In this document: piece after piece, positions 18,741 through 42,229 of the stretch | How the letters are laid out: each line of letters begins with the position of its first letter | Position numbering within the stretch: the stretch's first letter is position 1 | Assembly: GCA_950295325.1 (NCBI GenBank) | Contig: OX485804.1 | Span: 54,548,429-54,612,428, forward strand | Source: Polytrichum commune | Taxonomy: Eukaryota; Streptophyta; Polytrichopsida; Polytrichales; Polytrichaceae | Reading direction: 5' to 3' | Length of the DNA: 64,000 bases | The notes under the pieces: model-generated | The model's input: only the letters and a program-made list of their open reading frames with translations | Databases searched by the model: none | Told to the model about the DNA's origin: nothing | Position numbers and translations under genes: made by a program

Positions 18741-19172
18741 GTCGGGGTGTTCAGGAATAGGGATTCGAGACATATCCAGCGGGGGAGCAGAGTTGGTGAA
18801 GAGCCGAGTCGGTGTGATGCGATCCTTTGGTGGGAGTTGAAAACCTGCGTTCTCAAGTGCGAAGATCTCCGAGCGGGTGAGGTGGGTACCAATCTTGACA
18901 GGCCAGATTGGGGGAATGGGAGGTTTCTCTTGACCATCAGAGAACGGCATGACCCATTTCCGACGAGGGCCCTTTACGCAACGCTCTATGTCGTCGGGGC
19001 AGAAGACGAAGTCCGTGCACTTCATCGATTGGAGTTTGTAATGATGCCACATACCGGTGTAGGTAGGCGCAGGGACGCTCTTATTATTGGTGACGATTCT
19101 TGCAAAACACTTCTTCTTCGTGCCTGCATGATTAGCCCAACAAGACTTCCCTAATGTATAGGGTATGCGGGC
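18741..19172 (-). pseudogene. M1 MULE-like gene, C-terminal exon remnant
   Basis: The minus-strand reading gives SCWANHAGTKKKCFARI followed by GMWHHYKLQSMKCTDFVFCP and a tail ending PIPEHPD at the CV2 LTR. The Cys/His-rich start resembles the small zinc-binding segments that follow MULE-type transposase cores, but I cannot assign it firmly. The frame differs from the preceding exon, and I could not find a fully convincing splice junction between them. The rest of the gene lies on the far side of CV2, outside the window. Confidence 0.55.
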
Positions 19173-19178
19173 AATATG

Positions 19179-19772
19179 CTAAAGAGAGACATCTACTTTG
19201 GTTTCTTGCACTGCAGTGACACGATGGAAACCAAGTCCTGCAGGTGAAGGCACTTGAACCTCTTGAACAGACGGGGAACACTCCTCAATGATAGTAGGTA
19301 GGGTTTCTGGCTGAGATCGAGTGACTCGCTTACCGGGACGAGGGCGTGAGAAGTTCACGGTATCGGGGCGGTGGGTCTCGCCATCATCACCAATTGGAGT
19401 GTCAGGTCTTCGTTTCTGCGATCCAAACACCTCGGCGCCCTCAAGGTGTGGATCGCGAGTGCAAAACTCTTCCCCACCGGGCATGTCGAGCAAGACCTTC
19501 TGCAACACTGTGGGGTCGCCAGTACGCTGAGCTCGACGTTGAGCACCCCTGAGCTTGAGTTCCTCTTTGCTTGGACCATCTCCGCCAACTCCACCTTTAA
19601 GGAATGTGTAATATGCAACAACTTGTAGGAAGGCGCGAATGTAGTCGTCCACCGTAGCCACGTATAAATCTCCACCCTTGTTGCCCGAGGCCTGAAGCCA
19701 CTTGTTGTGGACGGACTCCGCAAGATTGCACGACGGCATCTCGGCCAACTGGTCTTGAGTCAGAACCTTGTC
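19179..19772 (-). CDS. M1 MULE-like gene, exon after the transposase core
   Basis: It follows a good intron acceptor (CCAATTAG on the minus strand) and continues in phase with the previous exon. It begins DKVLTQDQLAEMPSCNLAES, then VHNKWLQASGNKGGDLYVATVDDYIRAFLQ in consecutive segments. The NLAESVHNKW block is characteristic of the MULE-like transposase relatives found in many copies in early-diverging land plants (my recollection of the family). The second half is low-complexity and probably disordered. The frame stops at 19179. Confidence 0.6.
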   Translation of the reverse strand, partial: DKVLTQDQLAEMPSCNLAESVHNKWLQASGNKGGDLYVATVDDYIRAFLQVVAYYTFLKGGVGGDGPSKEELKLRGAQRRAQRTGDPTVLQKVLLDMPGGEEFCTRDPHLEGAEVFGSQKRRPDTPIGDDGETHRPDTVNFSRPRPGKRVTRSQPETLPTIIEECSPSVQEVQVPSPAGLGFHRVTAVQETKVDVSL

Positions 19773-19866: not shown

Positions 19867-20826
19867 CAGTTCCATGAAACCACCCCATTGAAGGTAGCGG
19901 AAGTGCCAGAAAGCAAGCCATAGCTGGAGGTGCTTGAGACCGTCCTCATTTGTACAATTCGATGATGCCCACCAAGCCTTGATAGCTAGGTACCTAGTCT
20001 CCGCCTCTGCCATAGAGGACACATTGCGATATTGAAGGCAAAGGTGTCTATGTTGGTCTTGTAACTCATGCTTTATGTAGGATTTCGTATGTTTCTCGAG
20101 CGACTGTTTCCAATGGAAAAAACAAGTGCGCTCACGGCCCTCCATAGGAACTTTGGGATCTCCTGAACCATACACAATGCGCACAGCGTTCCAATTGGCT
20201 TGCGTACTGTCCGCCATGAAGCCAATAAAGTTAGGATGCGGGATACCGTGGCGGGCCATGACATGGTTGAGGTTCTGCCAGAAGAGCACTTGGGCATCCT
20301 TATCCTCGGATTGGAAATCACAACATGAAATGGTCATGACACGTTGATAAGTCCCATCGTAGACATGAGCGGCCATGGTGGTCCACCCTTTGACCCGCTT
20401 GACGTGATCGGACATAATCCAGGCATTCTCAAGGTCCCCACCCGGTTGCATCCGACGAACCAAATCCACCCCGCTTCCAGGACCAACCTCGGACATCTTG
20501 AAGACGAACACCTTGTCGGCATCGTCACCTTGTCCTGGGAATTGGTTCCGTTGGACGTAGGCCCAATTGCTAACGCCTCGGAGCTTTGCGATGCCATCCA
20601 TAACACCGAACCTCCGCAAAAATTTGAAAGAGGTAACCTTAGATCGAAGGTTTGGGGAATTCAACCCTCTACAGCTCTCAAACACAGGTTCGAGCTCTGT
20701 TAAGGAGAGGAGACGGTGTTTCTCACTATTTTCAGAAAGGAGGAACTCACCAACAATGTCCTTGCGGGCTTCAAGGACGATCTTGCTGTACGTGGCCTGA
20801 GGCGTACGCTCAACGTGCTCCTCGAG
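19867..20826 (-). CDS. M1 MULE-like transposase core exon
   Basis: The minus-strand frame starts at the CV3 junction (VLEEHVERTPQATYSKIVLE) and runs about 320 residues. The central part reads GWTTMAAHVYDGTYQRVMTI, CDFQSEDKDAQ, FIGFMADSTQANWNAVR and RTCFFHWKQSLEKH. An RNase H-like fold with D, D and a C...H-W block is the pattern of MULE transposases. It would bind transposon ends and cut and join DNA. The exact catalytic triad cannot be fixed by eye. It is separated from its N-terminal half by the CV3 insertion, with a few codons missing at the junction, so this copy is inactive. Confidence 0.65.
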
Positions 20827-21794
20827 AACCCTTGCTAGCCCCCCCTTGACCATCTTGCCAATTTTCAATTCTAGCAAAGGTTACGAGTGGCTAACCCTTC
20901 GCATACCGCCATGCTAATGGTTAGCTCCTCTAACCCCGGACCAATAGTTCATAGGAGGGAACCAACCCTCCTACTTTGCTTTCGGGACTCACCCCTTCAT
21001 CGGTAACCCATTTCCCCAATGTGGACTTCCATCCATGGAAGTCCAATCCTATGTTGATCATCGCGTTGCCGGAGCAACACTACAACAACCCGAACCATAC
21101 TAGGCAACTATGGCCTCACAATAGGCCAAAGCCCATGGAGGCCTTGCCGTTCGGCCTCGGGTGGGTGAGGCCACACCACCTCACCCATATAAGCCTCTAG
21201 GACTTCACGCGGGGCCCCTACCCCACCGTCAACCAACCTCTTGTCTCTCTACCAAGAGTTGGGCCAAGTGGACATTTTCCTTTAGCTGCTGGGCCTAGAA
21301 CCCCCCAGCAGCTTCAGACCATCATAACTTCCTTGTATGATGTCTGATCATAACAAACAACCACTCCATCTTCATCTACGCTTCACGTAGATGCCGATGG
21401 ACTCCTCACTTGCCCCATTCGGGCAAGTGGTGAGGAAGTTATGCCTGTTTGAACCTTGGCAGTCCTGGGAATCACTCCCAGGCACTGCTGTAGCAGGGCG
21501 CTGTCCCGGGACAGCGCCCCACTCAAATGGCCATAACTCCTAGCTCACACCTCCGATTGAGGTGTTCTTGAGCTTTCTAGAATCACCACGCCATGAGCTA
21601 CGCATAACTCATGGCCTTACCCTTGTGCCTCCTAGTCTTCGTGGGTGGGAGGCGTTCCCAACGCCCGGGGCCCTCACCCACACTAGGATCACTTGGGCCC
21701 TCTCACCAACGGCGCCACAAGTCCCGGGTGTCACTCCGGGGTCCCCCTTGTGCCCATGGTGTTTCGGCCACTCCTCATGGAGAGGTGCGCGACA
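20827..21794 (-). repeat. CV3 3' LTR, six bases short at its outer end
   Basis: It starts with AACCC directly after M1 sequence CTCGAG and ends GCGCGACA. Otherwise it matches 26911-27878. Confidence 0.92.
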
Positions 21795-21810
21795 CTCACC
21801 CCCACCAAAC
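21795..21810 (-). promoter_or_regulatory. CV3 polypurine tract
   Basis: Plus strand CTCACCCCCACCAAAC, the complement of the tract described for CV1. The same sites are at 44822-44837 and 55105-55120. Confidence 0.8.
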
Positions 21811-22589
21811 GGAGTCGATGCCCTCATCGACTATACTCGTAGTCGGCACACCAATTCTCAAGTTGCCATCCTCTATGGTGCGGCATTGTGTTTACCTTAG
21901 GGCGCGACCCCCACAATGCTTCTTCAAATTTAGCATAGTCCCAAAGGTGTCGTTCCTAGGTGGTCCGTTAGCGACCTTGGATCTCTCCTCCAAGGACCCA
22001 ACCTATACTAGACCCACCTATTTTGGGACTCACTTGGGTTGCCCCTCCTTTGGGGCCTCCCCCGTTAGGCTCCACTAGCCTAACATGACACATCTAGGCG
22101 AGACCTCAACGCTTCCACTAAGTTGTCTCGGTTGCAACTCCGAGATGGCTTTCCATTGTTAAGCCACGCCTCGATCGCACGGGGGTGATGCCAAGTCCCG
22201 CCCGACTCGGTTCCCACTTTGCTCTTTCGAGACATGGGTTCATGACTCCCATGCGCCAACTCTCGTTAGCTCGCGGGTAGCACTTTTATGAGCACGCGCC
22301 ATCACCTTGTCCCCGCCCGGACAAGCCCACAACTAAGAAGTTTCTTGGTTTTATCCAAGGCCCCTCCAAGCCATGGCCCCAATTACTCGGCTTACCCAAC
22401 CTAGTTTGGCATATCTATTCCCCCTCTTCCATTAACCAAACACAAGTACAAGACTAGGACCTCATCTCATACTTTTCTCTTTGCACCACTAAAGTTTGGA
22501 CTTTATTCCCTCAAGCCAAAGAACAAGTGCATGTTGTGGAGCAATTAACCTCGAAACTATGTTTGCTACTAGAGTCTCTCCCCCACTAA

Positions 22590-23793
22590 AGGAGATTGAT
22601 GTCCTCATCAATGCCTACGCTTCATTTTATTGGAATCCTTAGCCTTAGTTTCTTCAAAGTGCTTCACCAATTCATTGGTGTGCACCATGTCTCTTGCCGC
22701 CACCCAAGCGGTTTCTTTCTCATGATATCCTCACCATTTCACCAAGTATTCCTTTGTATTTTTTCTTTCATTTTCACTTGGGCTTCCTACACTTGAGGAT
22801 GCCCTCTTACCTCATGTTCCAAATGACCTCCACAAGGTCGGGAGGTGGCCTAATCACTTGCTTGTGATCGGGCCACAAGGTGTCGTCCTAAAATGACTTT
22901 CGTAATGAGACATGAAATGTCGGATGCACTTTGATCTCCGGCGGTAATTCCAACTTATATATGTCCTTGACAACTTGTTCCACAATGGGAAACAAAGCTC
23001 CAATTTTGGACATGAACTTTGGAGTGAGGCCTTCCGGCTAAGTGAAGTTGTTCACATTCAACAACGCCTTTTGGCCCACCTCATTCTCCACTTCGCGTCT
23101 TCCGGCATTGACTTGCACTCCGTAGCACCTTCGGGCTTTCTCCACCAACAACTTGGTCATCTCCAAGACTTGTTCACGCTTCTTGGCCAAGTCCTCACCA
23201 TCTTGGTTGAACTCTAGTGTTCAATGTGCCCCCTCGAGAGCTAGGTTAATAGGTTGGAGCGCATCCACTCCATAAGCCACCACCAAAGACCACCCCTTGG
23301 TAGCCAAGTGCGTGGCTACATTGCAATTACACTCCGCTCGACCCACATAGTCCGCCCAATCTCCTTGGTCCGCCCCCACCAAGTTCCTCAAGTATTGCTT
23401 CAAGTCTCCATTCACACGCTTTGTTTTCCCATCCATTTGGGAATACACGGCCGTGCTAAACTTTAGTTTCAATACAACCTCCTTAGAGAAATGCATTGAA
23501 AATGCACTTGTGAACTTTGGATCTTGATCCCACACAATCACTCTTGGCAACCCGTGGTGCCTCAACCATCCTTTGAGAAAAGGCTATGCGGTCTCCAATG
23601 CGGTGGCGGTTCCCACAATCGGCACCATGTGTGCCAACTTGGCAAACCGCTCAACCATCAACAAGATGGCATCATACCCATGTGACTCCGGCAAACTTGT
23701 GATCAAGTCCATGCACATACTATGCCATGGCGCCGACGGGATAGGCAACGGTTGCAAGAAACCGCCTTGCTTTTGGTAAGAGGCTCGGTTCAT
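22590..23793 (-). pseudogene. CV3 integrase and chromodomain region, degenerate
   Basis: Integrase segments are CMDLITSLPESHGYDAI (from 23793), a TAG shared with CV1, then MRHHGLPRVIVWDQDPKF (from 23565). The catalytic Glu is lost: KTKRVNG replaces the KAERVNG seen in CV1. The chromodomain part towards 22600 is broken. Confidence 0.8.
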
Positions 23794-24439
23794 TTGAACC
23801 TTGATTCAAGCCTTCACAAAGTGGGCTATATCTTCCTTTATGCACCGCCAATGGTACCTCCATGACACCATTCTATGGCGGTTTTTTTTTTCTTTCTCCT
23901 CTATGGCCGGCAATAGGGCTATCACATTTTTCCTTCAAAACCGATAGCCTCAACTTGCCTTGTGGCACAAATACCCGACTTTGTTTGCACTTGAACAATC
24001 CGTCCACCAACTTAACCTCTTAGAGCACCTTGCTCTTGCGAAGCTCACCTAAAAGCTTTTGTGCTTTGGGGTAATTAATTTACCCCTCCCATATCTTGCA
24101 TCACAAGTTTCCTTTGCCGGCACACATTAGCCACAAGGTTTGGATGGTTCTCATTGCTTGGAACTCTTCCAGTCTACTTCGCGCATCCGGCACCACATTT
24201 CCACGGTCCGGTTTGTGGATCAAATCCACCTTCATAAGCGCCAAACTATCATGCCTCCGCAATGACTTGGCGTTCACTTACGCTTGTATGTCAAAATACT
24301 TTTAGGACACATTGTCCATGTAGACCTTTGCTTTGTGCGACCCCATATAATGTCGCCACATCTTCAAGCAATGCACTACGGCAAAGAAGTTCTTTGTCAT
24401 GAGTTGGTTGTCTTCTTTGACAACCATCGAGCTTTATGC

Positions 24440-25100
24440 TCCCATATGCAATGGCCATCCATCTTACACATAATCCACCATTGGCAAAGGCACTCACCCC
24501 CGTATGCACCTCGAAAGGTTTGTCAAGCTCCGCGAACTTGAGCACGGGCGGCGAAGAGAATTGGTGTTAAGCTCCCCAAAGACTCGTGACAAACATCATC
24601 CCACTCTTGGGATAGCCATTTCTTCCACAAGTCGCACAAGGTGGGACAACCATCGAGCTTCATGCTCTCATATGCCATGGCCATCCATCTTGCCTCAACA
24701 TCCGCCAATGGTAAAGTCACTCGCCCCCGTATGCACCTCAAAAGGTATGTCAAACTCCGCGAACTTGAGCACGGGCGGCAAAGAGAACTTCGTCTTAAGC
24801 TCCTCAAGGACTTGGTCGCACGGCTCATCCCACTCTTGGGATAGCCATGTCTTGCACAAGCCGGACAAGGTTTAACTACCATTGAGCTTAATCCTCTCAT
24901 AAGCAATGGTCATCCATCTTGGATCAACATCCGCTAATGGTAAAGTCCTTCGTCTCCATGTACACCTCAAAATGCTTATGAAAACCCGGAAACTTAACCA
25001 CATCTTGTGAAGGAAACTTGCTCTTGAGCTTCCCAAAGGCTTGGTGACAAGGCTCATCCCACTCTTAGGATAGCCATTTCCTCAATAAGTTGAGTAAGGT
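24440..25100 (-). repeat. CV3 tandem array of the RT-thumb/RNase H junction
   Basis: Three to four units with 228-230-bp spacing (GGATAGCCAT at about 24611, 24839 and 25068). It is homologous to 493-1403 of CV1. Confidence 0.8.
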
Positions 25101-25267
25101 CCTAGCAACCTTAAAACAAATCTAGAATGAAGTGGTGGTAGTAGTTGGCTAGGCCAACCAATGACCTAAGCTTTGTTTTAAGTCAAGGGCCAATTCTCCT
25201 CTTGGATTGCCTTGACATTCTTCATGTTTGTCCACCAACTTCCTTTGTCACCACATGCCTCAAGAAC

Positions 25268-26864
25268 TCAATTTCTTCTTGAGCAAAGTTGCAATTCACT
25301 CCTTGGTGGTAACATTTTGAGCAACACATTGGTGAATACATCCTTGTATCTCACCAACAACCCACAAGTATGGTTTGGGGGAGGCCCATCTTTCCTAGCC
25401 TCCCCATGAGTTCCTTGGAGTTGCTCCAATTGAACCACGACCATTATGTTTACCATTTTCATTTGGTCCATTAAGACCAAATTCAACTTGGGTCCTCCTA
25501 CCATAGGAGTCCTTGTCAATTTGAACTTCAATTCTTTGCCATTATGACACATCATAATGCACGGCAAGCACACCGGCTTGCGCCTCACATCTATCATGTG
25601 AGTTTCAACGTAGGCGGCCTTCACAATGACATGCATTTCATCTATTTCACATGGTGTGAAATTTTGACAAAAATCCAATGTCCCACATTGAAAGGTTACA
25701 TGCATCGCGGCCTCCTTTGTCTCATGCGGTTTGCCCTTTCCAAACCGCACCTTGGTGGGCTTCACCCCTCTACCAATCGGCAAACCCCAACTCCCTTGTG
25801 AGCTTTGGGGTCATGAAAGAATGCCTTAACTCTTTGTCAACCCATGAGACAAGTCTCCCATTCATTTGAGCCTCAAGGTACAAAATACTTGGCCTCGGCT
25901 TAAGGCTACTAGCCTTGGCCACAAAGCCATCGTCCAACATTTGGTCCTCGGCAACTTGGCTTGGCTTGGTCCGCAAAGCCAACTTTAAACATTTCGTCCG
26001 CGGGACAAATTGGTTTGGTGCCACAAAACCAATTTCTAATAATTTGTCCGCAAAACAAACATGTTTTGCCTTGGTAGCACAAAGCCACCTTCCCACACTC
26101 CGTCCGCGGCACGAACATGAATTGCCTTGGTAGGACAAACCCACCTCCCAACATTCCGTCCGCGGCACAAGTATGATTTGCTTTGGAAGCATAAAGCCAC
26201 CTTTCAACATTCCGTCTGCGGCACCAACATGTTTTGCCTAAGTAAAATGGACCAAACAATTTGCATTCATTTCTTTGGGACCTACTTTGGCTAAAGCCAC
26301 TTGTGGTGATGCGCCGCCAAACTTTTCTTGGGGACCATCGGATTCAATGATCTTGCAAACTTGATGATCCCCACCATGTCCTCAAGAAGCCTTGGGGACT
26401 TAAACAAGGCATCCACCACCCGCTTTTAAAACCCCACCTAAAAGGATGCATTTCTTAGAAAGCTCGTCCGTTTTAGGTGTATCCTTCATTTGTGCGTTTG
26501 AATAGCGCACATAGCCCTTAAGAGGCCCCGGGTGCCTCATTAGCACCAAGTTCATTTCAACATCCGAACCTTCGAAGCATCTCGAATTGAAATTTCAATC
26601 CAACATTAATACCCTCCAAGGTTTTGGGTCCTTTCGGTATTCTAGGCCCCAAATGTTTTTTTGAGGTTTGAGGGAGCCCTTTTCAAAGCACTCCTCCATT
26701 TTCCTTACCAAATCCACCCTCATGCCCACCATTGTCATTAGAACCAATGGTATGGTCAAATTCCACTTGCACATGATCCTTGTTCCAATTTGAGCCTCAC
26801 AACCTTTTGGAAACCCCGGGCTCACCATTATAACCCGCATTTTTGATAGCCATGTTTCCCTCAA
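25268..26864 (-). pseudogene. CV3 gag and protease-like region, degenerate
   Basis: It has the same order as in CV2. The gag start region (26864-26595) holds SPGFPKGCEAQIGTRIMC, followed by the 56-bp repeats and the protease-like stretch 25783-25268. The frame of this stretch reaches FTNVLLKMLPPRSELQLCSR and then runs directly into post-palm RT sequence, so the shared RT deletion is visible near 25270-25310. Confidence 0.65.
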
Positions 26865-26904
26865 AGTGCGAGCTCAAAACTTGGAACCCTGCTCTGATAC
26901 CACG

Positions 26905-27878
26905 TGTCGCAACCCTTGCTAGCCCCCCCTTGACCATCTTGCCAATTTTCAATTCTAGCAAAGGTTACGAGTGGCTAACCCTTCGCATACCGCCATGCTA
27001 ATGGTTAGCTCCTCTAACCCCGGACCAATAGTTCATAGGAGGGAACCAACCCTCCTACTTTGCTTTCGGGACTCACCCCTTCATCGGTAACCCATTTCCC
27101 CAATGTGGACTTCCATCCATGGAAGTCCAATCCTATGTTGATCATCGCGTTGCCGGAGCAACACTACAACAACCCGAACCATACTAGGCAACTATGGCCT
27201 CACAATAGGCCAAAGCCCATGGAGGCCTTGCCGTTCGGCCTCGGGTGGGTGAGGCCACACCACCTCACCCATATAAGCCTCTAGGACTTCACGCGGGGCC
27301 CCTACCCCACCGTCAACCAACCTCTTGTCTCTCTACCAAGAGTTGGGCCAAGTGGACATTTTCCTTTAGCTGCTGGGCCTAGAACCCCCCAGCAGCTTCA
27401 GACCATCATAACTTCCTTGTATGATGTCTGATCATAACAAACAACCACTCCATCTTCATCTACGCTTCACGTAGATGCCGATGGACTCCTCACTTGCCCC
27501 ATTCGGGCAAGTGGTGAGGAAGTTATGCCTGTTTGAACCTTGGCAGTCCTGGGAATCACTCCCAGGCACTGCTGTAGCAGGGCGCTGTCCCGGGACAGCG
27601 CCCCACTCAAATGGCCATAACTCCTAGCTCACACCTCCGATTGAGGTGTTCTTGAGCTTTCTAGAATCACCACGCCATGAGCTACGCATAACTCATGGCC
27701 TTACCCTTGTGCCTCCTAGTCTTCGTGGGTGGGAGGCGTTCCCAACGCCCGGGGCCCTCACCCACACTAGGATCACTTGGGCCCTCTCACCAACGGCGCC
27801 ACAAGTCCCGGGTGTCACTCCGGGGTCCCCCTTGTGCCCATGGTGTTTCGGGCACTCCTCATGGAGAGGTGCGCGACA
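26905..27878 (-). repeat. CV3 5' LTR
   Basis: It is 974 bp, from TGTCGCAACCC to GCGCGACA. Two bases separate it from the tRNA-Met primer-binding site at 26891-26902. Confidence 0.94.
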
Positions 27879-28241
27879 ATTGATGCGCTTCCGACTGTCT
27901 CTGCAGTCCCCAACCTTCACTGGATGTTGATGGTTTCCGATATGAATGCAGGCTCTTTGGGAGAAATTCTTCCCATGGACGTAGAAAATCTTCGCCTCGC
28001 AAAATGCAATGCATTTGGGAGGTTGTTTGCAGATCTTGCACACAAGAGTAGATCCGGATGGCACAATGCCAGAGAGAGGGAATGGCTGAGTAGTGAAACC
28101 ATCAAATTCCGTGTCGTTGACATGAGAGATACGATGGGCGCGTTGAAGGAAATCACAACAAGTGTTTTGGCATTGGAGATGGCCAACACAGGTAGAGGAA
28201 CGAAATAGAAGGCCAACGTCGTTTGTAATGTTGGTGGTCTG
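27879..28241 (-). CDS. M1 MULE-like gene, Cys/His-rich segment
   Basis: On the minus strand the frame carries many paired cysteines: CVGHLQCQNTCC, LVCKICKQPPKCIAFCEAK, then YVHGKNFSQRACIHIGNHQH and VKVGDCR. This looks like a zinc-binding DNA-binding region placed before the transposase core, in the position FLYWCH-type or related fingers take in MULE proteins. It reads into CV3 at 27879 and into the solo LTR at 28242. The frame is continuous with the N-terminal part beyond the solo LTR, with the duplicated GTCTG between them. Confidence 0.6.
28237..28241. repeat. Target-site duplication GTCTG of CV4, left
   Basis: The same bases are at 29214-29218. Confidence 0.93.
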
Positions 28242-30663: not shown

Positions 30664-33600
30664 GTAAGTTTGGGTTTAGCGTATTATGCACTAGGCTCAC
30701 ATATACATTTAGGATATTTAAAAGATGGAATTTGATATTGAGTTATGTAATGTGATTCTTAACGACCAACATGTGAAATATTGGAAGTTCTTATTTTGTT
30801 TAAGTTGGTTAGAGGGGAATATAGAACCAAACCCTCTCGGAACCGAGAGGGTCAAAAATTATGCACCACGAATAGGCTATAAGCTAAGCACGAAGTTGTG
30901 CGGGGCCGCCACCTCCCAAACACGGCACATAGGACATAGGCTTTCGGCCCATACCATTTTGGGGTGAGGTACATAGGCCAAAGTATCCCGATTCCTCTAG
31001 CTCCTAGGAACCATCCACCACACCAAGGAACCCTTGAGTCTAACCTAGATTAGTCTTCGGAGGCGCCTCCACTATATGCCGGCCGAAGCAAGGAGGAGGG
31101 CATTCGTGAGAGGTTGGAAGTTCGGGATTCTCAGGTGCATGTCTACTTGTGATATTCTGAATGTTGATTTCTCAAGACTGGAATCTGAAATGTGGATATG
31201 GAGTCCATATAGGTAGTTTTGAATTTGAAAAGTTGATAATATGGTCAACATGGTAGGACAAGGACACCCTCTCGGTTCCGAGAGGGTGGAGAAATGTGGA
31301 TTGTTGAGGCTCATCACTAGAACCAGATTTGTGCTTATTGAGCAAATATATGAAATTCTGATTTTCGAAAGTTCAAAATAAGGTCAGATTAGGAGAAGTG
31401 GGTGCCGAAATGCGGGTGTTGGGTTCTCATGACTAGAATCTGATATGTGAATATCGAGCCAATATAGGTAGTTTTGATTCGAAATTTGGATTATTGAGGC
31501 TCGTCACTAGAATCAAATTTGTGCTTATAGAGCATATATTCGAACTTTTGATTTTCGAAAGTTCAAAAAATGGTCAGATTAGGAGAAGGTTGGTGCCGAA
31601 ATGTGGATGTCGGGTTCTCAAGAGTAGAATCTGAAATGTGGGAATGGAGCTCATATAGGTAGCTTTGAATTTGAAAAATTGATAATATGGTCAATATGGT
31701 ACGACAGGGACACCCTCTCGGTTCCGAGAGGGTGGAGAGATGTGGAAATTTGAGGCTTATGACTAGAATCTGATTTGTGGAAAATGGGACCATATCAGAA
31801 GTTTTGATTTTCAAAAGTTGAAAATCTGGTTAGGATAGTTAGACTGGGACACCCTCTCGGTTCCGAGAGGGTGGAGAGATGTGGAAATTTGAGGCTTATG
31901 ACTAGAATCTGATTTGTGGAAAATGGGACCATATCAGAAGTTTTGATTTTCAAAAGTTGAAAATCTGGTTAGGATAGTTAGACTGGGACACCCTCTCGGT
32001 TCCGAGAGGGTGGAGAAATGTGCACTTTGGAGGCTCATGACTAGAATCGGAAATATGGATTAAGGGCCCATATAGGTAGTTTTGATTTTCATAATGTCAA
32101 AATATGGTCATTATAGTAGGACAGAGACACCCTCTCGGTTCTGAGAGGGTGGAGAAATGTGGAAATTTGAGGCTGATGACTAGAATCTTATTTGTGGATA
32201 ATGGGACCATATAGGTAGTCTTGATTTTCAAAACTAGAAAATCTGGATAAATTAGTTAGACTGGGACACCCTCTCGGTTCCGAGAGGGTGGAGAAATGTG
32301 GACTTTGGAGGCTCATGACTAGAATCTGAAATATGGATTAAGGGCCCATATAGGTAGTTTTGATTTTCATAATGTCAAAATATGGTCATTATAGTAGGAC
32401 AGAGACACCCTCTCGGTTCCGAGAGGGTGGAGAAATGTGGAAATTTGAGGCTGATGACTAGAATCTGATTTGTGGATAATGGGACCATATAGGTAGTTTT
32501 GATTTTCAAAACTAGAAAATATGGTTAGGATAGTTAGACTGGGACACCCTCTCGGTTCCGAGAGGGTGGAGAAATGTGGACTTTGGAGGCTCATGACTAG
32601 AATCTGAAATGTGGATTAAGGGCCCATATAGGTAGTTTTGATTTTCAAAAGTTGAAAATATGGTTAGGATAGTTAGACTGGGACACCCTCTCGGTTCCGA
32701 GAGGGTGGAGAAATGTGGACTTTGGAGGCTCATGACTAGAATTTGAAATGTGGATTAAGGGTCCATATAGGTAGTTTTGATTTTCATAATGTCAAAATAT
32801 GGTCAGTATAGTAGGACAGGGACACCCTCTCGGTTCCGAGAGGGTGGAGAAATGTGGAAATTTGAGGCTTATGACTAGAATATGATTTGTGGATAATGGG
32901 ACCATATAGCTAGTTTTGATTTTCATAAGTTGAAAATCTGGTTAAATTAGTTAGACTGGGACACCCTCTCGGTTCCGAGAGGGTCGAGAAATGTGGACTT
33001 TGGAGGCTCATGACTAGAATCTGAAATATGGATTAAGGGCCCATATAGGTAGTTTTGATTTTCATAAGTCGAAAATATGGTTAGGATAGTTAGACTGGGA
33101 CACCCTCTCGGTTCCGAGAGGGTGGAGAAATGTGGACTTTGGAGGCTCATGACTAGAATCTGAAATGTGGATTAAGGGCCCATATAGGTAGTTTGGATTT
33201 TCATAAGTTGAAAATATGGTTAGGATAGTTAGACTGGGACACCCTCTCGGAACCGAGAGGGTGGAGAAATGTGGAAATTTGAGGCTTATGACTAGAATAT
33301 GATTTGTGGATAATGGGACCATATAGGTAGTTTTGATTTTCAAAAGTTGAAAATCTGGATAAATTAGTTAGACTGGGACACCCTCTCGGTTCCGAGAGGG
33401 TGGAGAAATGTGGACTTTGGAGGCTCATGACTAGAATCTGAAATGTGGATTAAGGGCCCATATAGGTAGTTTTGATTTTCAAAAGTTGAAAATATGGTTA
33501 GGATAGTTAGACTGGGACACCCTCTCGGTTCCGAGAGGGTGGAGAAATGTGGAAATTTGAGGCTGATGACTAGAATCTGATTTGTGGATAATGGGACCAT

Positions 33601-36600
33601 GTAGGTAGTTTTGATTTTCAAAACTAGAAAATCTGGTTAGGATAGTTAGACTGGGACACCTTCTCGGTTCCGAGAGGGTGGAGAAATGTGGACTTTGGAG
33701 GCTCATGACTAGAATCTGAAATGTGGATTAAGGGCCCATATAGGTAGTTTTGATTTTCATAATGTCAAAATATGGTCAGTATAGTAGGACAGGGACACCC
33801 TCTCGGTTCCGAGAGGGTGGAGAAATGTGGAAATTTGAGGCTTATGACGAGAATCTGATTTGTGGATAATGGGACCATATAGGTAGTTTTGATTTTCAAA
33901 AGTTGAAAATCTGGTTAAATTAGTTAGACTGGGACACCCTCTTGGTTCCGAGAGGGTGGAGAAATGTGGACTTTGGAGGCTCATGACTAGAATATGAAAT
34001 GTGGATAAAGGGCCCATATAGGTAGTTTTGATTTTCATAATGTCAAAATATGGTCAGTATAGTAGGACAGGGACACCCTGTCGGTTCCGAGAGGGTGGAG
34101 AAATGTGGAAATTATAGGCTCATGACTTGATTCTGATTTGTGTATATTGGGCCAATATAGGATGTATTTATTTTCATATGGTCAATATATGGTCATTATT
34201 CTAGGACAGGGACACCCTCTCGGTTCCGAGAGGGTGGAAAAATGTGGAAATCTGAGGCCCTTCACTAGAATCTGAAATGTGGATTAAGGGCCCATATAGG
34301 TAGTTTTGATTTTCATAATGTCAAAATATGGTCAGTATAGTAGGACAGGGACACCCTCTGGGTTCCGAGAGGGTGGAGAAATGTGGAAATTATAGGCTCA
34401 TGACTTGATTCTGATTTGTGTATATTGGGCCAATATAGGATGTATTTATTTTCATATGGTCAATATATGGTCATTATACTAGGACAGGGACACCCTCTCG
34501 GTTCCGAGAGGGTGGAGAAATGTGGAAATTTGATGCCCTTCTCTAGAATCTGATTTGTGGATAATGGGACCATATAGGTAGTTTTGATTTTCAAAAGTTG
34601 AAAATCTGGATAAATTAGTTAGAGTGGGACACCCTCTCGGTTCCGAGAGGGTGGAGAAATGTGGACTTTGGAGGCTCATGACTAGAATCTGAAATGTGGA
34701 TTAAGGGCTCATATAGGTAGTTTTGATTTTCATATGGTAAGGTTAGTTAGACTGGGACACCCTCTCGGTTCCGAGAGGGTGGAGAAATGTGGATTTTGGA
34801 GGCTCATGACTAGAATCTGAAATGTGGATTAAGGGCCTATATAGGTAGTTTTGATTTTCATATGGTCAATATATGGTAAGGTTAGTTAGACTGGGACACC
34901 CTCTCCGTTCTGAGAGGGTGGTGAAATGTGGAATTTTTAGGCTCATGACTAGAATCTGATTTGTGGATATTGGGCCAATATAGGATGTATTTTTTTTCAT
35001 ATGGTCAGTATATGGTCATTATAGTAGGAAGGGGACACCTCTCGGTTCGAGAGGGTGGTGAAATGTGGACTTTTTGGGCTCATGGCTAGAATCTGATTTG
35101 TGGATAATGGGCCCATATAGGTAGTTTTGATTTTCAAAAGTTGAATATATGGTAAGGTTAGTTAGACTGGGACACCCTCTCGGAACCGAGAGGGTGGTGA
35201 AATGTGGAAATTTTAGGCTCATGACTAGAATCTGATTATTGGATAATGGGCCAATATAGGATGTATTGATTTTCATATAGTCAAAATATGGTCATTATAG
35301 TAGGAATGGGACACCCTCTCGGTTCCGAGAGGGTGGAGAAATGTGGACTTTTTAGGCTCATGGCTAGAATCTGAAATGTGGATAATGCGCCAATATAGGT
35401 AGTTTTGATTTTCATTAGTTCAGACTATGGTCATTATAGTAGGACATGGTCACCCTCTCGGTTCCAAGAGGGTGGTGAAATGTGGAAATTTTAGGCTCAT
35501 GACTAGAATCTGATTTGTGGATAATGGGCCCATATATTTAGTTTTGAATTAGTTAGACTGCGTGTATGTCCTCTCGGTTCCTAGAGGGGGAGAAATGTGG
35601 AAATTTGAGGCCCAACACTAGAATCTTATATGTGGTTATATAGCCTTTAAAGGTATTTCTGATTTCCGAAAGGTGAAAATATGGTCTGGTTTGTTAGACT
35701 TGGTCACCCTATCGGTTCCGAGAGGCTGGAGAATTGTGGATTTCTAGGCTCATCAGAAGAATCATATATGTGGTTTAAGGTTACTTTAGTAGGACAGGAC
35801 ACCCTATCGGTTCCGAGATGGTGGAGAAATGGTGTTTATATGGGCTCTTCACTCTATTCTTATTTCAGATTTTCGGATTCAATAGGCTGGGTTTGAAGTA
35901 TATGGATTATTTGTATGTGTATGGAGTGCATTCTAAAAGGACTGGGGCATCATCTCGATGTATTTTGTGCATACAGGCATCGCAGGCTTTGGCCCTTACT
36001 GTGGCGCGTGTCCAATACATGGCGGATGGGCATATTCTATTGTCGCCTCGTGAAGATTGCCATAGGGCACTGGATGACATCTCACAGGGAGAGGTGTTTG
36101 ATTCGTTGAAATTCTGTTGTATTTTTGTTTGCCTCTGCTTCTTGTTTGTTTCGTCTTATAGTTTTTTTCTGATGCTTCCCTCCTCTTCTCTTGTAGATTG
36201 ATGTTCCGCTTGTTTCCGACTGCATTCGACCTCTTGATGAGGAGAATCCAGATGAAGCCGAGCTCAAGGTTCGGAGATCGCAGAAGCAAGACTCTAACAC
36301 CGTGATTCAGCGGGTGCGATTCAAGCCTCTTGGGAAGTCTCGTTTCTCTATTCCATTGTGTCGCTTGCGGAGTCTTCCTCTTGTTTGGCCAATCAACGAC
36401 GTTGATGTTTCTCGTTTGGAGAATGAGTTCGTCATGGGATACCGTGATGGTGACCGCGCTTTGTACGTCTCTCTATATATATAACAACCTCGATGAGGTC
36501 CTTCATGTCTCCGATGACGTCAAGTCCTCCTGGAGTCCATTATGGCAAGAGGCCAATGCAGAGTTTGATGCCATTCTCGAAAGAGACCCCGACCTTGCTA

Positions 36601-39600
36601 ACTTTGTTGGCAAAATGTTCTACGTGTGGGAGGGGAACCATCGGTTGACAGATTGGTGGAGGCACATCAACAAGCATCACCCTTTGGACAAAGATTGGCA
36701 TATATGGGCTGATTGTATTTTGGTGGATCCAAGAAATTGCACCGCCCTCTTCCTTAATGCTATGAATGGCATCAACTGGTGAGTTCAACATTTAATGTTG
36801 CTGATATTCTCTTTTGTTTGTTCTCATTTTTCCCTCTAACATTTTGTTTGTTATAGGTCCACGGAGCATGACCATGTTAAAGATAACCTCCCCGCCAAGT
36901 TACTTCGCATTCGCACGTTTGGAAAGATGAGGCTAGAGGAGTTCAAAGACCTCCTTTCCGTTTCGGACTACAAGATGTGTGAGTCCAAGATGGAGAAGAC
37001 TCCTACTTGGTATCCCCTGACATTAGATGTCTTCGTCAAATTCTTATACAAGGTAAAGTTTGTTTAAACTTTCCTTGACTTTCCTTCTCCCATGTTTATG
37101 TGCGTTCCTTATCCTTCTTTGTGTTTGTTTCAGAGAGAGATATCCAACGCGGCTGATACGGCTGCGAGGTTATACCGTGAGGCCACTCCCGAGGCTCTCC
37201 GATCTTCGACAAAAATTTGGGATATTATGTCAAAAGCCCAGGATAGGTTGATCAAAAGCATTCGTTCTCGGAACTTTGAGAAGTTCATTTCCGTTGCCCA
37301 CAAGGACAACGGGGATGATTTCTTCAACGAGGTGTCTCTCTTATCCTTGTGTTTTCATTTATTCTTTCATTCTCATTTACATCATGTCGTGCTTGATATC
37401 TCTTTCTTACTTATCTCTATTCTTACTTCATATCTATGTGGCAGATTGACCGTCATTTCTCCACCTTCCTCGTCCCTGATATGACAATCGAAAAACTTCA
37501 AAAGGTGGCTACCGCACATGTGGATGCCCATTTCAAGGCCAAGTGGCTTCGTTGGTGGAACTCCCCTGCCGATGTCAAGGAAAAGAATAGATTTCCGTCG
37601 TCTCTCCCTCTTAGGGAGAAAGTCCTCGAAAACTGGCTCAACAAAGCTTCTTTCTGGGCGCAGGTGCAATTCTTGTTTTTTTCCTCTTTCTATTATTTGA
37701 AATCTTCATACCAAGGACTAGGAAACCCTCTCGGTTCCGAGAGGGTGGAGAAATGTGGATATCTTAGGCTCAAGACTCTAATCTGAAATGTGGATATTGA
37801 GCCAATATAGGTACTTTAGAATTTCAAAAGTTGAAAACATGGTCATTGTAGAAGGACTAGGACACCCTCTCGGTTCCGAGAGGGTGGAGAAATGTGGAAA
37901 TCTCAGGCTCAAGAATAGATTCTGACTTGTGGATAATGGGCTCATATAGGTAGTTTTGATTTTCAAAAGTTCAAAATATGGTTAGGTTAGTTATTCTGGG
38001 ACACCCTCTCGGTTCCGAGAGGGTGGAGAAATATGGAAATATTAGGCTCATGTCTAGAATCTGATTTTTGGATAATGGGCCCATATAGGTAGTTCTGATT
38101 TTTACAAGTTCAAAATATGGTTAGGTTAGTTAGACTGGGACACCCTCTCGGAAATTAATGGCTCATGACTAAAATCTGGTTTGTGCTTATTTAGCCAATA
38201 TAGGTAATTCTGGTTTTTTAAAAGATGAAAATATGGTGAAAATGCTAGGACAGGGACACCCTCTCGGTTCCGAGAGGGTGGACAAATGTGGAAATTTTAG
38301 GCTCATCACTAGAATCTGATTTGTGGATAATGGGACCATATAGGTAGTTTAGATTTTCAAAAGTTGAAAATATGGTTCGGATAGTTAGACTGGGACACCC
38401 TCTCGTTTCCGAGAGGGTGGAGAAATGTGGAAATTTGAGGCCCTTCACTAGAATCTGATTTGTGGATAATTGGCCCATATAGGTAGTTTTGATTTTTAAA
38501 TGTTTAAAATATGGTCATTATAGTAGGACAGGGACACCCTCTTGGTTCCGAGAGGGTGGACAAATGTGGAAATTTTGTGCTCATGACTAAAATCTGATTT
38601 GTGGAAAATGGGCCCATATAGGTAGTTTTGATTTTCCAAAGTTGAAATTGTGGTTAGGATAGTTAGACAGTGACACCCTCTCGGTTCCGAGAGGGTGGAG
38701 AGGTGTGGAAATTAATGGCTCATGACTAGAATCTGGTTGGTGATTATTTAGCCAATATATGTAATTCTGATTTTCAAAAGTTCAAGTGAAAATAGTAGGA
38801 CAGGGACACCCTCTCGATTCCGAGAGGGTTGAGAAATGTGGAAATCTTAGGCTCGAGAGTAGAATCTGACTTGTGCATATTGAGCCAATATAGGTAATTC
38901 TTATTTTCAGAACTCGAAAATATGGTCATTTTTTATTTTAGTGTTTTCCGGAATTTGGATTTGGGGTTCTCATGACTGGAATCTGATATGTGCTTATGAA
39001 GCCAATATAGGTATTTTTGGTTTTCAAAACTTTAAAATATGGTCAGTCTATTAGGACGGGACACCCTCTCGGTTCCGACCGGGTGGATAAATGTATATAT
39101 TTGAGGCTCAATACTAAAATCTGATTTGTGCTTCTTGAGCCAATAAGGGAATTTCAAGTTTTGATACTAAGGTCATTTTCGTATTAGTGGGTGCCTAGAT
39201 GTGGAATTTGGGTTCTCAAGACTAGAATCTGATATGTGGATATTGAGCCCATATAGGTAATTCTGATTTTCAAAAGTTATGGTCATATAGATAATGGGCC
39301 CATTTAGGTAGTGTTCATTTTGAAAAGTTCAAAATATGGATAGGTAGTTAGACTGGGACACCCTCTCGGTTCCGAGAGGGTGGAGAGATGTGGAAATTAA
39401 TGGCTCATGACTACAATCTGTTTTTGCTTATTTAGCCCATATAGGTAATTCTGATTTTCAAAATTTGAGAAAATGGTCATTATAGTAGGACCGGGACACC
39501 CTCTCGGTTCCGAGAGGGTGGAGAAATGTATGTTTTGAGGCTCAAGACTAGAATATGATTTGTGCTTATTTAGCTAATAAGGGAATTTCAGATTTTGAGA

Positions 39601-42229
39601 ATTTGTCACTGTGGTCATTTTGGGTGACAACTTGAAAATATGGTCTGATTTCCCGGTCCAGTTTTCTAATGTGCATAAGTGATGCTAATATGTGGTGCTA
39701 ATATGTGGTGCTCATATGTGGATTTATTTGGCTATGTAGGTTATTCAGCTAATATGTTTATTTCTTGTTTGGAAATATAGAATGTTTGACTGGGACACCC
39801 TCTCGGTATGAGTGGGACACCCTCTCGGTCTTTTTGTCATGTCTAAGGTTTTTTTTTTATGTGTCTAGAGTCTAAGTTCATGTTTGTAGGTTATTGAGTT
39901 GTTCTTTTCTTACTATTTTCCTTTTCTGTCATAGTTGGAGAAGGGGGTTGAGGCTGAGATTGCTTCATTTGAGAATGTGTGTTCCGTTGAAATCGATTGG
40001 AGTTCTACGGAAGATATTTTTCAACCGGGAGATTATGTTGAGCATTGGAGGCTGATTCTTTGGGACAAGGCATTTTTGGTTTATTTTGACGATAATGGAG
40101 ATCTAAAATTTGTCAAAGGCCTTGATCTCATGGATTTTAGGGACGGCCCCATATCAATCAAACGTGTCGCTTACCGGTAATATTCTAAGTTTTCTTTGAC
40201 TACATGTGGTTTTTGTTTCATTTCCTTTTCCCCACCGTCTTTGTTTCTCATGTTCTTCATTTTTCAGGTTCATTCACCGTGAGCTCGTTGTGAAGAATGC
40301 ATTGCCTTCTTCGTGCTTGCCAACTTTCCTTTTACATTGGCTCGATGCCAACTCCAATCTTTGTGTTTTTACGCCCAATCAAGTTGCCAAGTTTCCGCAG
40401 TCTCACTTGCAAGCTGGGGGATGGTACTTGGATTGTTCTGGAGGATTTGTGCCTGCGGAAGAAAAGCCTCTTCTTACTAGCCTTGTGCGTAGTGCTCCCG
40501 AGGTGAACATTGTCCCGGATGAGGAGCCCGACATCGTTGAGCTTCCTCCTCCACCGCCCAAGGCACCCAAGGCAAAGGGCAGAGGTAAGAATACCGGCAC
40601 TCAATTAACTCGGTCCGCCTCAAAGACCCCCGTTCAGCCACCCACCTTACTACAGAGTCCACCTAGCACTCCCTCCGTTGCTCCATCAGCTGCCCCCTCT
40701 ATCACTCCCTCCGCATGTCGGCCACCAACTGTTGCTACTCCTTCTCACAGTGGCACTTCTCTTCTCTCCTTGCCTCGCAAGAGGAAGGCCGCCCTCTTGG
40801 ATACGAGTGCCACCTCTTCGGATTCACCTACCACGCTTTCCCTCATCGAAAATGTGGACATGGTACAACTCATGCTCGATTGCGACCTTGCAGGAGGTCC
40901 CCTCCCGGCATATACGCGCATCCAACAGTTCATTGCCAAGGTTTGTATGTTTTTTATTGGCATTCATCAAACTCCTTTCCATTTGGTTTACGTTTTTTTT
41001 TCCTTCTTCATTTTTTCTCATGGATTTTTCATTGCAGGCCGGGGAAGGTCGTTCCCGTGTGAACACCTCCTCTACACATCACAAGGGACTGGATTTACTC
41101 TTCGCGGACATTCCCGAAAATTTGCCGGTGCCCAACATCTCCACGGATGTTCCTGATTGGAACAAGCTCCATGACTCTTACTATGACTGTTTTTTTGCTT
41201 TTGCAAAATCTAACCTCTATGATCATGGCGTCCTTGTTATTGTCCATTGTGCGAGTGCAAGTGTTTCTAGGCTTATTTTCGATTGGGCTCACACTTACGA
41301 CTTCTATGTCGCCGAAGATTGGTTCGGTATGGCTGATTTGGACCTCCAATCTCCGGTGGACCCCTCTGGAGTGGTAAGCAACTATCCCTCTCCTAGTCCA
41401 TTTTTGTTTTTTTTTTTCATTTCACTTCTTCCGATTCTTATGGAATCGTTTTCATTTTTTCAGACTCGTAAATTCAGTATCAAGGTTCTTGTTCATGTTA
41501 ACTCCGTTCTGAAAGTGCGACCGGAGGCCGCCAAGGAGTATGGTTACTACCTCCAGCGAGATGGATGGTTGAATGCTTTCACCGATGAGAAGAGCCAGAC
41601 GATGCGCAGTGATGGGATACCCTGGAGAGGTGCTCGCGAGAAGCATCAAGTTTTCTTCTCTATCATTTTTGCTACTCTCACAGATAAGAATGATGTTGTT
41701 ATGGACTGGCATTGTGGTGTAGGTGGTTCAATTACAGCGTGTCGCTCCATTGAGCGGCATATTGTGGCCCTTGAGAGTGACCCAGTGATTTTCAATGCGA
41801 TCCTACTCCCCATGCGTGAAAACCAACCTTCGCAACCCTCCCGCTCAAATGCCCCACCGTCCACCTCTATGTTTGATCCGCCTAAGAAGATGACCAAACA
41901 AGCATTCGGTTTTCTTTGTGCGTAAGTTTTCTTTCTATGTTTTGTCATGTTTGCCTTCTAGTGATTTTCCCATCTTCGTGTGTCATCTTGTTTCTAATCT
42001 TATTGCTTTTTGGTTCAGAGCGCCAAGGGAGAACGCATGTATGAGTTCGAGTCCTTCCAAGACATTTGAGCTCCCTTGCTATGCGGCCGGGCTTGCCAAT
42101 CTTTTGGCGGAAGCTCCGTCTCCACCTCCCAGTCGCATCCGACCTTTCAACAAACTAGTAGAGGAGTATTTAGACGTAGAGGCGGAGGACGGCGAGGATA
42201 GTGATAGACATGGTAGTCCTAGTTTTTGA
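30319..42229 (+). CDS. ParB-like / amino-methyltransferase-like protein, 11 exons
   Basis: Exons: 30319-30663, 35977-36093, 36197-36778, 36857-37052, 37134-37331, 37445-37663, 39935-40176, 40268-40940, 41038-41373, 41464-41921, 42019-42229. All ten introns are GT-AG and the phases join correctly, giving about 1,192 residues. Residues 1-115 carry basic clusters (KKKKRK, KQRRRR; possible nuclear signals) and an acidic Ser/Glu stretch. About 116-350 resemble a ParB/sulfiredoxin fold with GNHR near 301. About 350-720 are not recognised, 720-800 are a Pro/Ser-rich linker, and 860-1080 resemble beta-class amino-methyltransferases. Exon 3 holds a frameshift at a (TA)5 run (36474-36483) that creates a TAA at 36482-36484; every other exon is open. 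The ParB-plus-methylase arrangement is known from bacteria and phages, but introns and nuclear signals make this a eukaryotic gene. It probably belongs to the same transposon as M1. A methyltransferase role is inferred from fold only. Confidence 0.7.
30831..35830 (+). repeat. Intron 1 array: about 33 near-palindromes every ~140 bp
   Basis: Each ~140-bp unit holds arm ACCCTCTCGG, a two-base centre (usually TT) and the inverted arm, followed by GGAGAAATGTGG. The rest of the unit (CATGACTAGAATCTG, CATATAGGTAGTTTTGATTT) is conserved too. Two unit types alternate, GACTTTGGAGGC and GAAATTTGAGGC, so a ~280-bp higher-order period is likely between 31850 and 34760. Sites lie near 30830, 31266, 31709, 31850, 31990 and onward to 35801. 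The array fills intron 1 and contains no gene. Confidence 0.92.
35977..36778 (+). CDS. Exons 2-3: ParB/sulfiredoxin-like region
   Basis: Exon 2 (35977-36093) reads VARVQYMADGHILLSPRED. Exon 3 (36197-36778) reads IQRVRFKPLGKSRFSIPL, a long helical part and FYVWEGNHRLTDWWRHI, ending FLNAMNGINW. A GNHR-type motif after a hydrophobic strand is the phosphate-binding signature of the ParB/Srx fold. The length to the motif is greater than in minimal ParB domains. The (TA)5 frameshift sits between ALYVSL and NNLDEV. Confidence 0.6.
36474..36483 (+). repeat. (TA)5 microsatellite that shifts the exon 3 frame
   Basis: Upstream sequence is open in one frame and downstream sequence in another, and they meet at this dinucleotide run. 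A run of three or six TA units would keep the frame. The total exon length is one base over a multiple of three, which fits loss of one TA unit. Confidence 0.8.
36857..37663 (+). CDS. Exons 4-6 of the ParB/methyltransferase-like gene
   Basis: Exons 36857-37052, 37134-37331 and 37445-37663, separated by introns of 81 and 113 bp. Peptides include LPAKLLRIRTFGKMRLEEF, REISNAADTAARLYREATPE and FSTFLVPDMTIEKLQKV. They look mostly alpha-helical and I do not recognise a family. The helical segments follow the ParB-like region, where bacterial ParB proteins have their helix-turn-helix domain; this is position only, not a motif match. Confidence 0.6.
37725..39830 (+). repeat. Intron 6 array: about 14 more near-palindromes
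   Basis: It has the same unit as in intron 1, with sites near 37728, 37866, 38003, 38144 (half site), 38257, 38398, 38537, 38676, 38811, 39062, 39360, 39499 and two half sites near 39797 and 39818. Spacing is less regular and units are more decayed than in intron 1. It occupies most of the 2,271-bp intron 6 (37664-39934). Confidence 0.9.
39935..40940 (+). CDS. Exons 7-8 of the ParB/methyltransferase-like gene
   Basis: Exons 39935-40176 and 40268-40940. Exon 7 reads WRLILWDKAFLVYFDDNG and KFVKGLDLMDFRDGP, probably a beta-rich domain. Exon 8 continues HRELVVKNALPSSCLPTFLL and HLQAGGWYLDCSGGFVPAEE, then a long Pro/Ser/Thr linker with KAKGRGKN and LPRKRKAALLD (possible second nuclear signal), and ends in a helix before the methyltransferase-like domain. 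Confidence 0.6.
41038..41921 (+). CDS. Exons 9-10: beta-class amino-methyltransferase-like domain
   Basis: Exon 9 (41038-41373) holds GLDLLFADIPENLPVP at the place of catalytic motif IV (DPPY/F/W in active enzymes), followed by YDHGVLVIVHCASASVSRLI. Exon 10 (41464-41921) holds GIPWRGAREKHQVF and then NDVVMDWHCGVGGSITAC with IERHIVALESDP, the place of motif I (D-P-F-x-G-S-G) and the following acidic residue that binds AdoMet. The order IV before I is that of beta-class DNA amino-methyltransferases. Both signatures deviate: DIPE for DPPY, and CGVGGS for FxGSG. Catalysis is therefore doubtful, and a binding role is possible. Confidence 0.6.
42019..42229 (+). CDS. Exon 11, C-terminal tail of the ParB/methyltransferase-like gene
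   Basis: It begins after TTCAG, completes the Ala codon split in phase 2, and ends with TGA at 42227-42229. The peptide is Pro/Ser-rich, then acidic (EYLDVEAEDGEDSD), and probably unstructured. Confidence 0.6.

Follow-up and report, generated by a model that had tools for sequence, protein, structure and literature searches.

A 64,000-nucleotide stretch of the Polytrichum commune genome (positions 54548429-54612428 of contig OX485804.1, our contig C2; hereafter, the window) contains two genes arranged head to head: a leftward gene for a transposase of the Mutator-like element (MULE) type and a rightward, 11-exon gene that joins a ParB-like region to a methylase-like domain. The locus raises two questions: are the genes parts of one transposon, as an original prediction made from the window's letters had supposed, and what would such an accessory protein do for the element that carries it? 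Analysis of the genome (407.8 Mb, 64 contigs) revealed that the window element belongs to a large transposon that has been copied repeatedly, and that this copy is dead. The analysis also revealed palindrome arrays in the introns of the accessory gene, which are new here and absent from the original prediction. Judging from their sequence, there is about an even chance that these palindromes are the binding sites of the accessory protein.

Recurrence and mobility of the gene pair

A 100-residue piece of the ParB-like exon had at least 150 genome matches with 61-100% identity (the best 150 of 1059 candidates were scored). Similarly, the catalytic exon of the transposase had at least 127 matches with 79-100% identity (the best 127 of 1754 first-look candidates). 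Among the 127 listed MULE matches, 84 had a listed ParB-exon match within 40 kb. The original prediction had named independent placement of the two genes in other copies as a sign against it; placement was mostly not independent, with 77 of the 84 pairs head to head (MULE on the 5' side) and 7 in other orders (4 + 3). Chance placement of the gene pair was rejected, as 500 trials using uniform placement and rounded contig sizes yielded a mean of 1.07 head-to-head pairs and a maximum of 5. The 43 MULE matches for which no ParB match lay within 40 kb, among the best 150 of the 1059 ParB candidates, were kept in the total and given no order class; as each list covers the best candidates, their lack of a listed partner does not count against pairing. 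One of them, at C1:2249091, has a palindrome array where intron 1 of the accessory gene would be.

Close copies had the same organization. Six close siblings were fetched as 30-kb stretches. Three contained both genes with both starts, the ATG-to-ATG spacing being 321, 323, and 323 bp as compared to 323 bp in the window. The other three had no MULE within the fetched 30 kb; sibling c6 has a head-to-head MULE match 30 kb away. In two young copies, y2 and y3 (16.2 and 16.7 kb), both genes, inverted repeats, and target duplications could be read; the copies align in two long collinear blocks of 8.5 and 6.8 kb that are 99.1 and 99.5% identical. Among ten young copies, the target duplication was an exact 10 bp in six, 9 of 10 bp in one, and unreadable at one or both ends in three. 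Besides y2 and y3, five more copies had matches of both genes between ends with a target duplication. Finally, ten MULE matches have the same score and a 766-residue open frame in common, which points to recent amplification of the element.

Thus, the transposase gene and the divergent ParB-like/methylase-like gene are one mobile MULE-type unit, as borne out by the recurrence of the pair, the young copies, and the target duplications. The recurring head-to-head order, shared ends, and target duplications that the original prediction had proposed to look for were all found in the same genome. The window viewed alone would allow the accessory gene to be an ordinary host gene, lying beside the transposase by chance or through a one-off capture. 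Set against the 150 or more ParB-exon matches, the 77 head-to-head pairs, the target duplications read in seven of the ten young copies, and a relative in another genome bin, we consider this explanation very improbable.

The end of contig C4 beyond 41.9 Mb holds 50 of the 150 listed ParB-exon matches and 28 of the 127 listed MULE matches. Matches in this region, possibly a non-recombining or heterochromatic one, often have lower identity or stops.

Palindrome arrays in the accessory-gene introns

The introns of the accessory gene carry arrays of approximately 22-bp palindromes that share the core CTCGG-NN-CCGAG and have variable outer arms. The palindrome of the window is ACCCTCTCGG-TT-CCGAGAGGGT. 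Counting cores with at most one mismatch, the window element has 42 sites: 31 in intron 1 (30664-35976, plus strand), 11 in intron 6 (37664-39934, plus strand), and none in an exon. Part of intron 1 is a tandem array of 139-bp units (31617-35547). Perfect 10+2+10 palindromes numbered 29 in the gene region of the window versus 0.02 in dinucleotide shuffles, and 30 versus 0 in a young copy. Outside 17750-42900, the window contains 11 perfect palindromes of three other sequences, all without the CTCGG core. Over 43 of the 139-bp units, the palindrome was the most conserved 22-column block (0.971 versus 0.805), a comparison that somewhat favours the palindrome because a unit was included only if it resembled the site (no more than 4 of 22 mismatches).

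The repeat units of y2 and y3 are different from those of the window and carry GAGGCCTCGG-AT-CCGAGGCCTC. Twelve further subfamily members were sampled at about 2.7 kb each, of which 10 had core arrays at one mismatch or fewer, L031 only with the mismatch. Including nine larger regions, core arrays were present in 19 of 21 family loci. By comparison, six background pieces totalling 80 kb contained no core at this threshold. In a distant relative, L002, three TGGGTCTCGG-AT-CCGAGACCCA-type sites occur, one of them mismatched in a single arm; another, L003, whose sequence starts further inside the gene, has no palindrome site.

Genome-wide, the exact core CTCGGNNCCGAG had 7,400 matches versus 154 for a reversed control pattern, and each of 100 listed matches lay within 1 kb of another. 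Two listed arrays on contig C1 were unexplained by the earlier matches, and their four flanks were examined. One flank of each array contained family pieces: L065, beside the first array, has a divergent ParB-like exon (38-42%) oriented with its 5' side towards the array, and L063, beside the second, has accessory-gene exon 1 together with a transposase end. No match was obtained for the remaining flanks, L062 and L064. Among the listed sites, the C1 arrays vary in their central dinucleotide (AG, TA, GA, AT, and others), and such variants may define further subfamilies.

Co-variation of the arms and proposed exchange with the ParB-like half

To compare the arms, eight distinct site types were hand-picked and given one row each, leaving out loci that repeat a chosen 22-mer; the resulting test counts lineages rather than independent events. 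The inner core was nearly invariant, and the outer five pairs changed on both sides together. Specifically, cells changed on both sides numbered 17 versus 7.2 in shuffled data, and the covariation score was 0.507 versus 0.180. Neither value was reached in any of 500 shuffles, and slid controls had lower scores.

Site type goes with the clade of the ParB half and not with MULE identity. Relatives with the NNLDE type of ParB half have ACCCT arms in L032, L033, L036, and the window's siblings, and in part in L031; the exceptions are L035, with a third arm type, and L034 and L037, with none. Relatives with the FNDxxV type (y2, y3, and L038-L042) have GAGGC or GAGCC arms.

This distribution bears on the possibility that the palindromes serve transposition or expression, as transposase-binding sites, intron RNA hairpins, or insulators, with the accessory protein doing something else. 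The arrays lie in accessory-gene introns, with the promoters on one side and most of the coding part on the other, a location that would suit such a role, and palindromes would also fold as RNA. However, site type does not follow the transposase: among copies whose MULE is 94-96% identical to that of the window, some have ACCCT arms (c2b; L031 in part) and others GAGGC/GAGCC arms (y2, L038, L042), and copies with 81-87% identity are likewise mixed (L032, ACCCT; L039, GAGGC; L035, the third type; L034, none). One-sided (G-U) changes were rare (1 of 80 cells). Overall, a role in transposition or expression seems rather unlikely.

Divergence varies along the element. Between the window subfamily and y2, third-position identity fell from 82-86% in the transposase to 38-43% across accessory exons 3-7, was 55% in exon 8a, returned to 72-79% over exons 8b-10, and dropped to 47% in exon 11. 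By this profile, the array and the ParB half make up one block that is older than the sequence on either side of it. The pattern suggests that the two have been exchanged together as a recognition cassette, and the genome appears to contain natural swaps between subfamilies.

The methylase-like half of the accessory protein

The data support a methylase-like protein with an S-adenosylmethionine (AdoMet) motif that is under selection, the profile support for its methylase-like half being modest. The window sequence matched the Pfam profile N6_N4_Mtase with E values of 0.056-0.1, under the cut-off, and only 2 of 48 exon 10 family members reached this profile at E 1. A PHROG methyltransferase profile gave E 0.0016, and the best solved relative was 5hfj, labelled as the adenine methylase DpnA (profile match, E 4.9e-4). 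The distant relative L002 matched N6_N4_Mtase at E 1.8e-4, also below the Pfam cut-off. These profile matches cover the X-I-II part; motif IV, ahead of it, was read by eye. The protein thus has the motif order of a beta-class amino-methyltransferase, IV before X-I-II, together with the AdoMet motif, and the GNHR, 'ADIPE', and 'DWHCGVGG...ALESD' motifs occur in the order originally claimed. A fold model of this half was discarded as too poor (predicted local distance difference test score, pLDDT, of 50).

Exon 10 alone had 47 matches with 39-91% identity, the weakest at E 1.2e-22. The whole spliced protein had no match at E 0.01 among 5.8 billion proteins; because exon 10 alone gave 47 matches, this null is probably due to exon-split gene predictions falling under the length filter. 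A scan of IMG/VR returned one weak, 32-residue methylase match. The ratio of nonsynonymous to synonymous substitution rates (dN/dS) was 0.20 and 0.18 for siblings c5 and c2b versus y2, over 936 and 945 codons, suggesting purifying selection on the accessory gene. This estimate is rough as synonymous differences are partly saturated, exon 6 of c5 lacks one base, and exon 8 of c2b contains one stop. In several exon 10 homologues (e.g., P0076, P0082, and P0086) and in copy y2, the AdoMet motif seems to be split exactly by an additional intron (GVG|GGS) that is missing from the window copy.

The catalytic motif of beta-class amino-methyltransferases is [DNS]PP[YFW]. In the three lineages aligned, the corresponding position reads DIPE, DIPE, and DVPE. 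It is this D[IV]PE reading that makes an active amino-methylase doubtful, a point against any scheme in which the protein methylates DNA. An accessory protein that is an active N6-adenine or N4-cytosine methyltransferase marking the element's own DNA would nonetheless be in keeping with the beta-class motif order and AdoMet-binding motif, with an adenine methylase as the best solved relative, with the score of L002, and with the predicted activity of a similar algal protein (PMC12477816). Given the substitution in all three lineages, we regard such an enzyme as a minor possibility.

Proposed role of the accessory protein

We slightly favour a scheme in which the accessory protein recognizes and protects its own element. 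In this scheme, the protein would bind the palindromes, as ParB binds parS, itself a palindrome, or as VANC, the anti-silencing protein of VANDAL elements, binds its motif arrays. Binding would mark only the copies bearing the protein's own address. The methylase-like half, thereby delivered to the arrays, would change local chromatin or DNA methylation, either by methylating or, given its degenerate catalytic motif, by merely binding AdoMet. The element would in this way escape host silencing, and both divergent promoters would stay usable; anti-silencing as the outcome is suggested by analogy. A more specific form of the proposal is evenly balanced between true and false: the accessory protein would be a ParB-derived, methylase-fused reader of the arrays in its own introns, in a parS-like self-recognition, and array and reader would be swapped together as a specificity cassette among elements that are alike in other respects, giving mutually blind subfamilies. 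Such a swap would be comparable to the exchange of target recognition domains in restriction-modification systems.

Several results weigh against this scheme. With respect to the reader, Pfam and PDB profile searches gave no ParB/Srx match for the ParB half, and its hhalign comparison with SopB had a probability of 1.6. The GNHR motif is present in all three lineages aligned, and it is by this motif only that ParB kinship is proposed. Accordingly, where the original prediction looked to profile searches for both domains, the methylase half found support and the ParB half came down to a motif. With respect to the sites, two of five covariation measures did not exceed the shuffles (both-side pairs, 5 versus 4.4; pair types, 8 versus 7.4). 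L035 has its own arm type despite having the window's type of ParB half, the outer arms are partly asymmetric in L035, L031, and L042, and the core is absent from L034 and L037 (2 of 21 loci), the array of L037 containing a half-site. Sites also occur outside the fetched element spans in c3 (5), c4a (7), and c6 (3); as they are partly spaced at 139 bp, they are probably pieces of other copies. Finally, the array lies next to the ParB half in the same element, and hitch-hiking through this physical linkage could account for their association. Conservation of the core amid differing surrounding repeat units is unexplained by linkage.

A phage match of the ParB part (E 9) was dropped, as the record examined was annotated as a sigma factor. 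Pieces of the distant relatives L002 and L003 matched the accessory protein in the same order, with 28-44 and 25-45% identity, respectively. Both lie in contigs binned as a soil-crust cyanobacterium, and the same bin has a MULE relative. This bin, AVDCRST_MAG81 (L002, L003, and L004), combines intron-bearing ParB/methylase contigs with a MULE, and these contigs are probably eukaryotic contamination.

The ParB-like half might instead clamp or bridge the arrays to aid transposition of a long element or to gather copies, with no role in silencing. The element is 16 kb long, and ParB-like proteins spread from palindromic sites, both of which would suit this function. A weak point against it is that the arrays lie inside introns and nothing tested ties them to termini or transposition. 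We judge clamping or bridging to be quite unlikely.

Comparison with known systems

The VANDAL elements of Arabidopsis are Mutator-like and are not known to have typical inverted repeats. VANC binds motif arrays in non-coding parts of its own element, introns included, leading to loss of DNA methylation; VANC and its targets change together, and the transposase is more conserved (PMC5735166). We consider VANC the closest working model for the accessory protein and its arrays. The two systems share a transposon with an accessory protein, tandem motif arrays that extend into accessory-gene introns, targets that vary between related elements more than the transposase does, and joint change of protein and sites. 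They differ in that VANC has DUF1985/DUF287 (PMC5735166), for which a Pfam scan of accessory exons 3-6 and the methylase part gave no match. Further, VANC has a short motif, YAGTATTAY, whose copies all point the same way within an array, and its binding and demethylation have been demonstrated experimentally (PMC5735166), whereas the present system is known from sequence alone.

The original prediction knew of no plant transposon with a ParB-methylase gene; such accessory genes had already been reported in algal transposons. Sola1-1_Ec32 of Ectocarpus encodes a 1104-residue accessory protein that combines a ParB-like domain with an N4C/N6A methylase domain. Its gene lies on the other strand from the transposase, and the protein has been proposed to bind the element that encodes it and to modify that DNA; green and red algal cases are cited alongside it (PMC12477816). 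Both are large DNA transposons with a ParB-like/methylase accessory gene opposite the transposase. Sola1-1_Ec32 has a Sola transposase rather than a MULE one, and the available description mentions no binding-site arrays (PMC12477816). Among the listed titles and abstract openings of papers that connect ParB to transposons, methyltransferases, or palindromes, that treat it in plants or algae, or that concern accessory methylases of transposons, few of them subscription papers, we found no other such element and no palindrome arrays in one. In phages, the ParB-CTPase fold, in which ParB is a DNA-loading clamp, occurs fused to N6_N4 methylase domains (PMC12704722). What the accessory protein would have in common with these phage and bacterial fusions is a ParB-like region joined to a methylase-like domain, its ParB homology being proposed from a motif; unlike them, the accessory gene is intron-rich and of eukaryotic type.

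If the proposal is correct, sequence-specific self-recognition would have been invented a second time, independently, by a Mutator-like element, in this case via a DNA-binding fold of prokaryote type. The proposal also has a bearing on whether eukaryotic mobile elements use methylases of the adenine or N4-cytosine type. The 22-bp palindrome provides a concrete target for the ParB-methylase proteins of transposons, whose function has so far only been suggested.

Assignment of the transposase

The transposase has 70 relatives in public contigs, with 48-95% identity. Pfam detected no Mutator or MULE transposase domain in 28 family members scanned at E 1; one of the 28 had a DDE_Tnp_1-like zinc finger match (E 0.76). 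The predicted fold of the catalytic exon (AlphaFold, pLDDT 71) was closest to that of ISCth4 transposase, which accounted for the top three PDB matches, with E values of 3.2e-4 to 4.8e-4, probabilities of 0.99-1.00, and template modelling scores of only 0.26-0.34. ISCth4 falls in the IS256 group, whose members are the bacterial relatives of Mutator, and the match fits an RNase H-like DDE transposase related to IS256. Mutator-like elements have target duplications of 8-11 bp, and the inverted ends and 10-bp target duplications of the young copies fit this pattern. In Mutator-like transposases, a SWIM zinc finger follows the catalytic domain. Copies y2, y3, and c4b contain a stretch matching (38-39%) the C-terminal part of relative P0002, where a SWIM-like CxC...CxH motif was read by eye; this stretch was not found adjoining the truncated window copy. 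The IMG/VR scan revealed no MULE relative.

Structure of the window copy

The two genes were found where the original prediction had placed them, with start codons at 29995 (leftward) and 30319 (rightward). The 323-bp intergenic promoter region between them (29996-30318), whose spacing is conserved in siblings, has by eye the TATA-like box in each direction that had been described. The accessory gene lies on the plus strand. Its exon 1 (30319-30663), encoding a charged N-terminus, was delimited using its GT border and sibling copies, and exon 2 (35977-36093) using AG/GT borders. Exon 3 (36197-36778) contains the ParB-like region with the GNHR motif. It is followed by exons 4 (36857-37052), 5 (37134-37331), 6 (37445-37663), 7 (39935-40176), and 8 (40268-40940), all supported by splice borders. 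Exon 9 (41038-41373), in which the DPPY-like position is DIPE, was further supported by the lineage alignment, and exon 10 (41464-41921), with the AdoMet-binding motif DWHCGVGG...ALESD, by homologues and the profile match. Exon 11, with the stop, occupies 42019-42229. Standard AG/GT borders are present at all 11 exons wherever one is expected. The exons and borders are therefore as originally claimed, but the gene is not intact: the reading frame is broken because exon 3 has 4 extra bp relative to all six close siblings, which, on reading the sequence, were placed in the (TA)n run around 36473-36484.

The transposase gene, on the minus strand, is interrupted twice. Its N-terminal piece (29214-29995) is separated from a zinc-binding-like piece (27879-28241) by a solo long terminal repeat (LTR; 28242-29213, minus strand) with GTCTG duplicated on both sides, as judged by eye. 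A full LTR retrotransposon (about 20829-27878, minus strand), recognized from LTR motifs and a gap between sibling matches and having a shortened 3' LTR end by eye, separates the zinc-binding-like piece from the catalytic-domain exon (19867-20828). The following exon (18741-19772) has an in-frame TAG at 19179-19181. A further LTR (17750-18740, minus strand), without a target duplication, borders the element on the left. The right terminal inverted repeat (42758-42818, minus strand; inner border approximate) ends in ...CATACTTCAGTTTCCC at 42818 and was identified from the shared end of siblings and its match to the termini of young copies. The originally proposed range, 18741-42229, thus holds the gene pair and stops short of the element's right end. 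A search with a 14-base inverted-repeat pattern did not find the left end: the pattern had one match with at most one mismatch (42794-42807) and three with two mismatches elsewhere. In all, the copy has suffered three LTR insertions, loss of its left end, an in-frame stop, and a frameshift.

The window has received several insertions of a single LTR retrotransposon family, whose LTRs measure about 1 kb (TGTCGC...GCGACA) and whose motifs extend up to 63310. Judging from its flanking sequence, young copy y3 seems to lie within an LTR of this family. Apart from the element studied here, the window contains at 63128-63340, on the minus strand, a 39-40% match to the SWIM-like C-terminal end of a MULE transposase.

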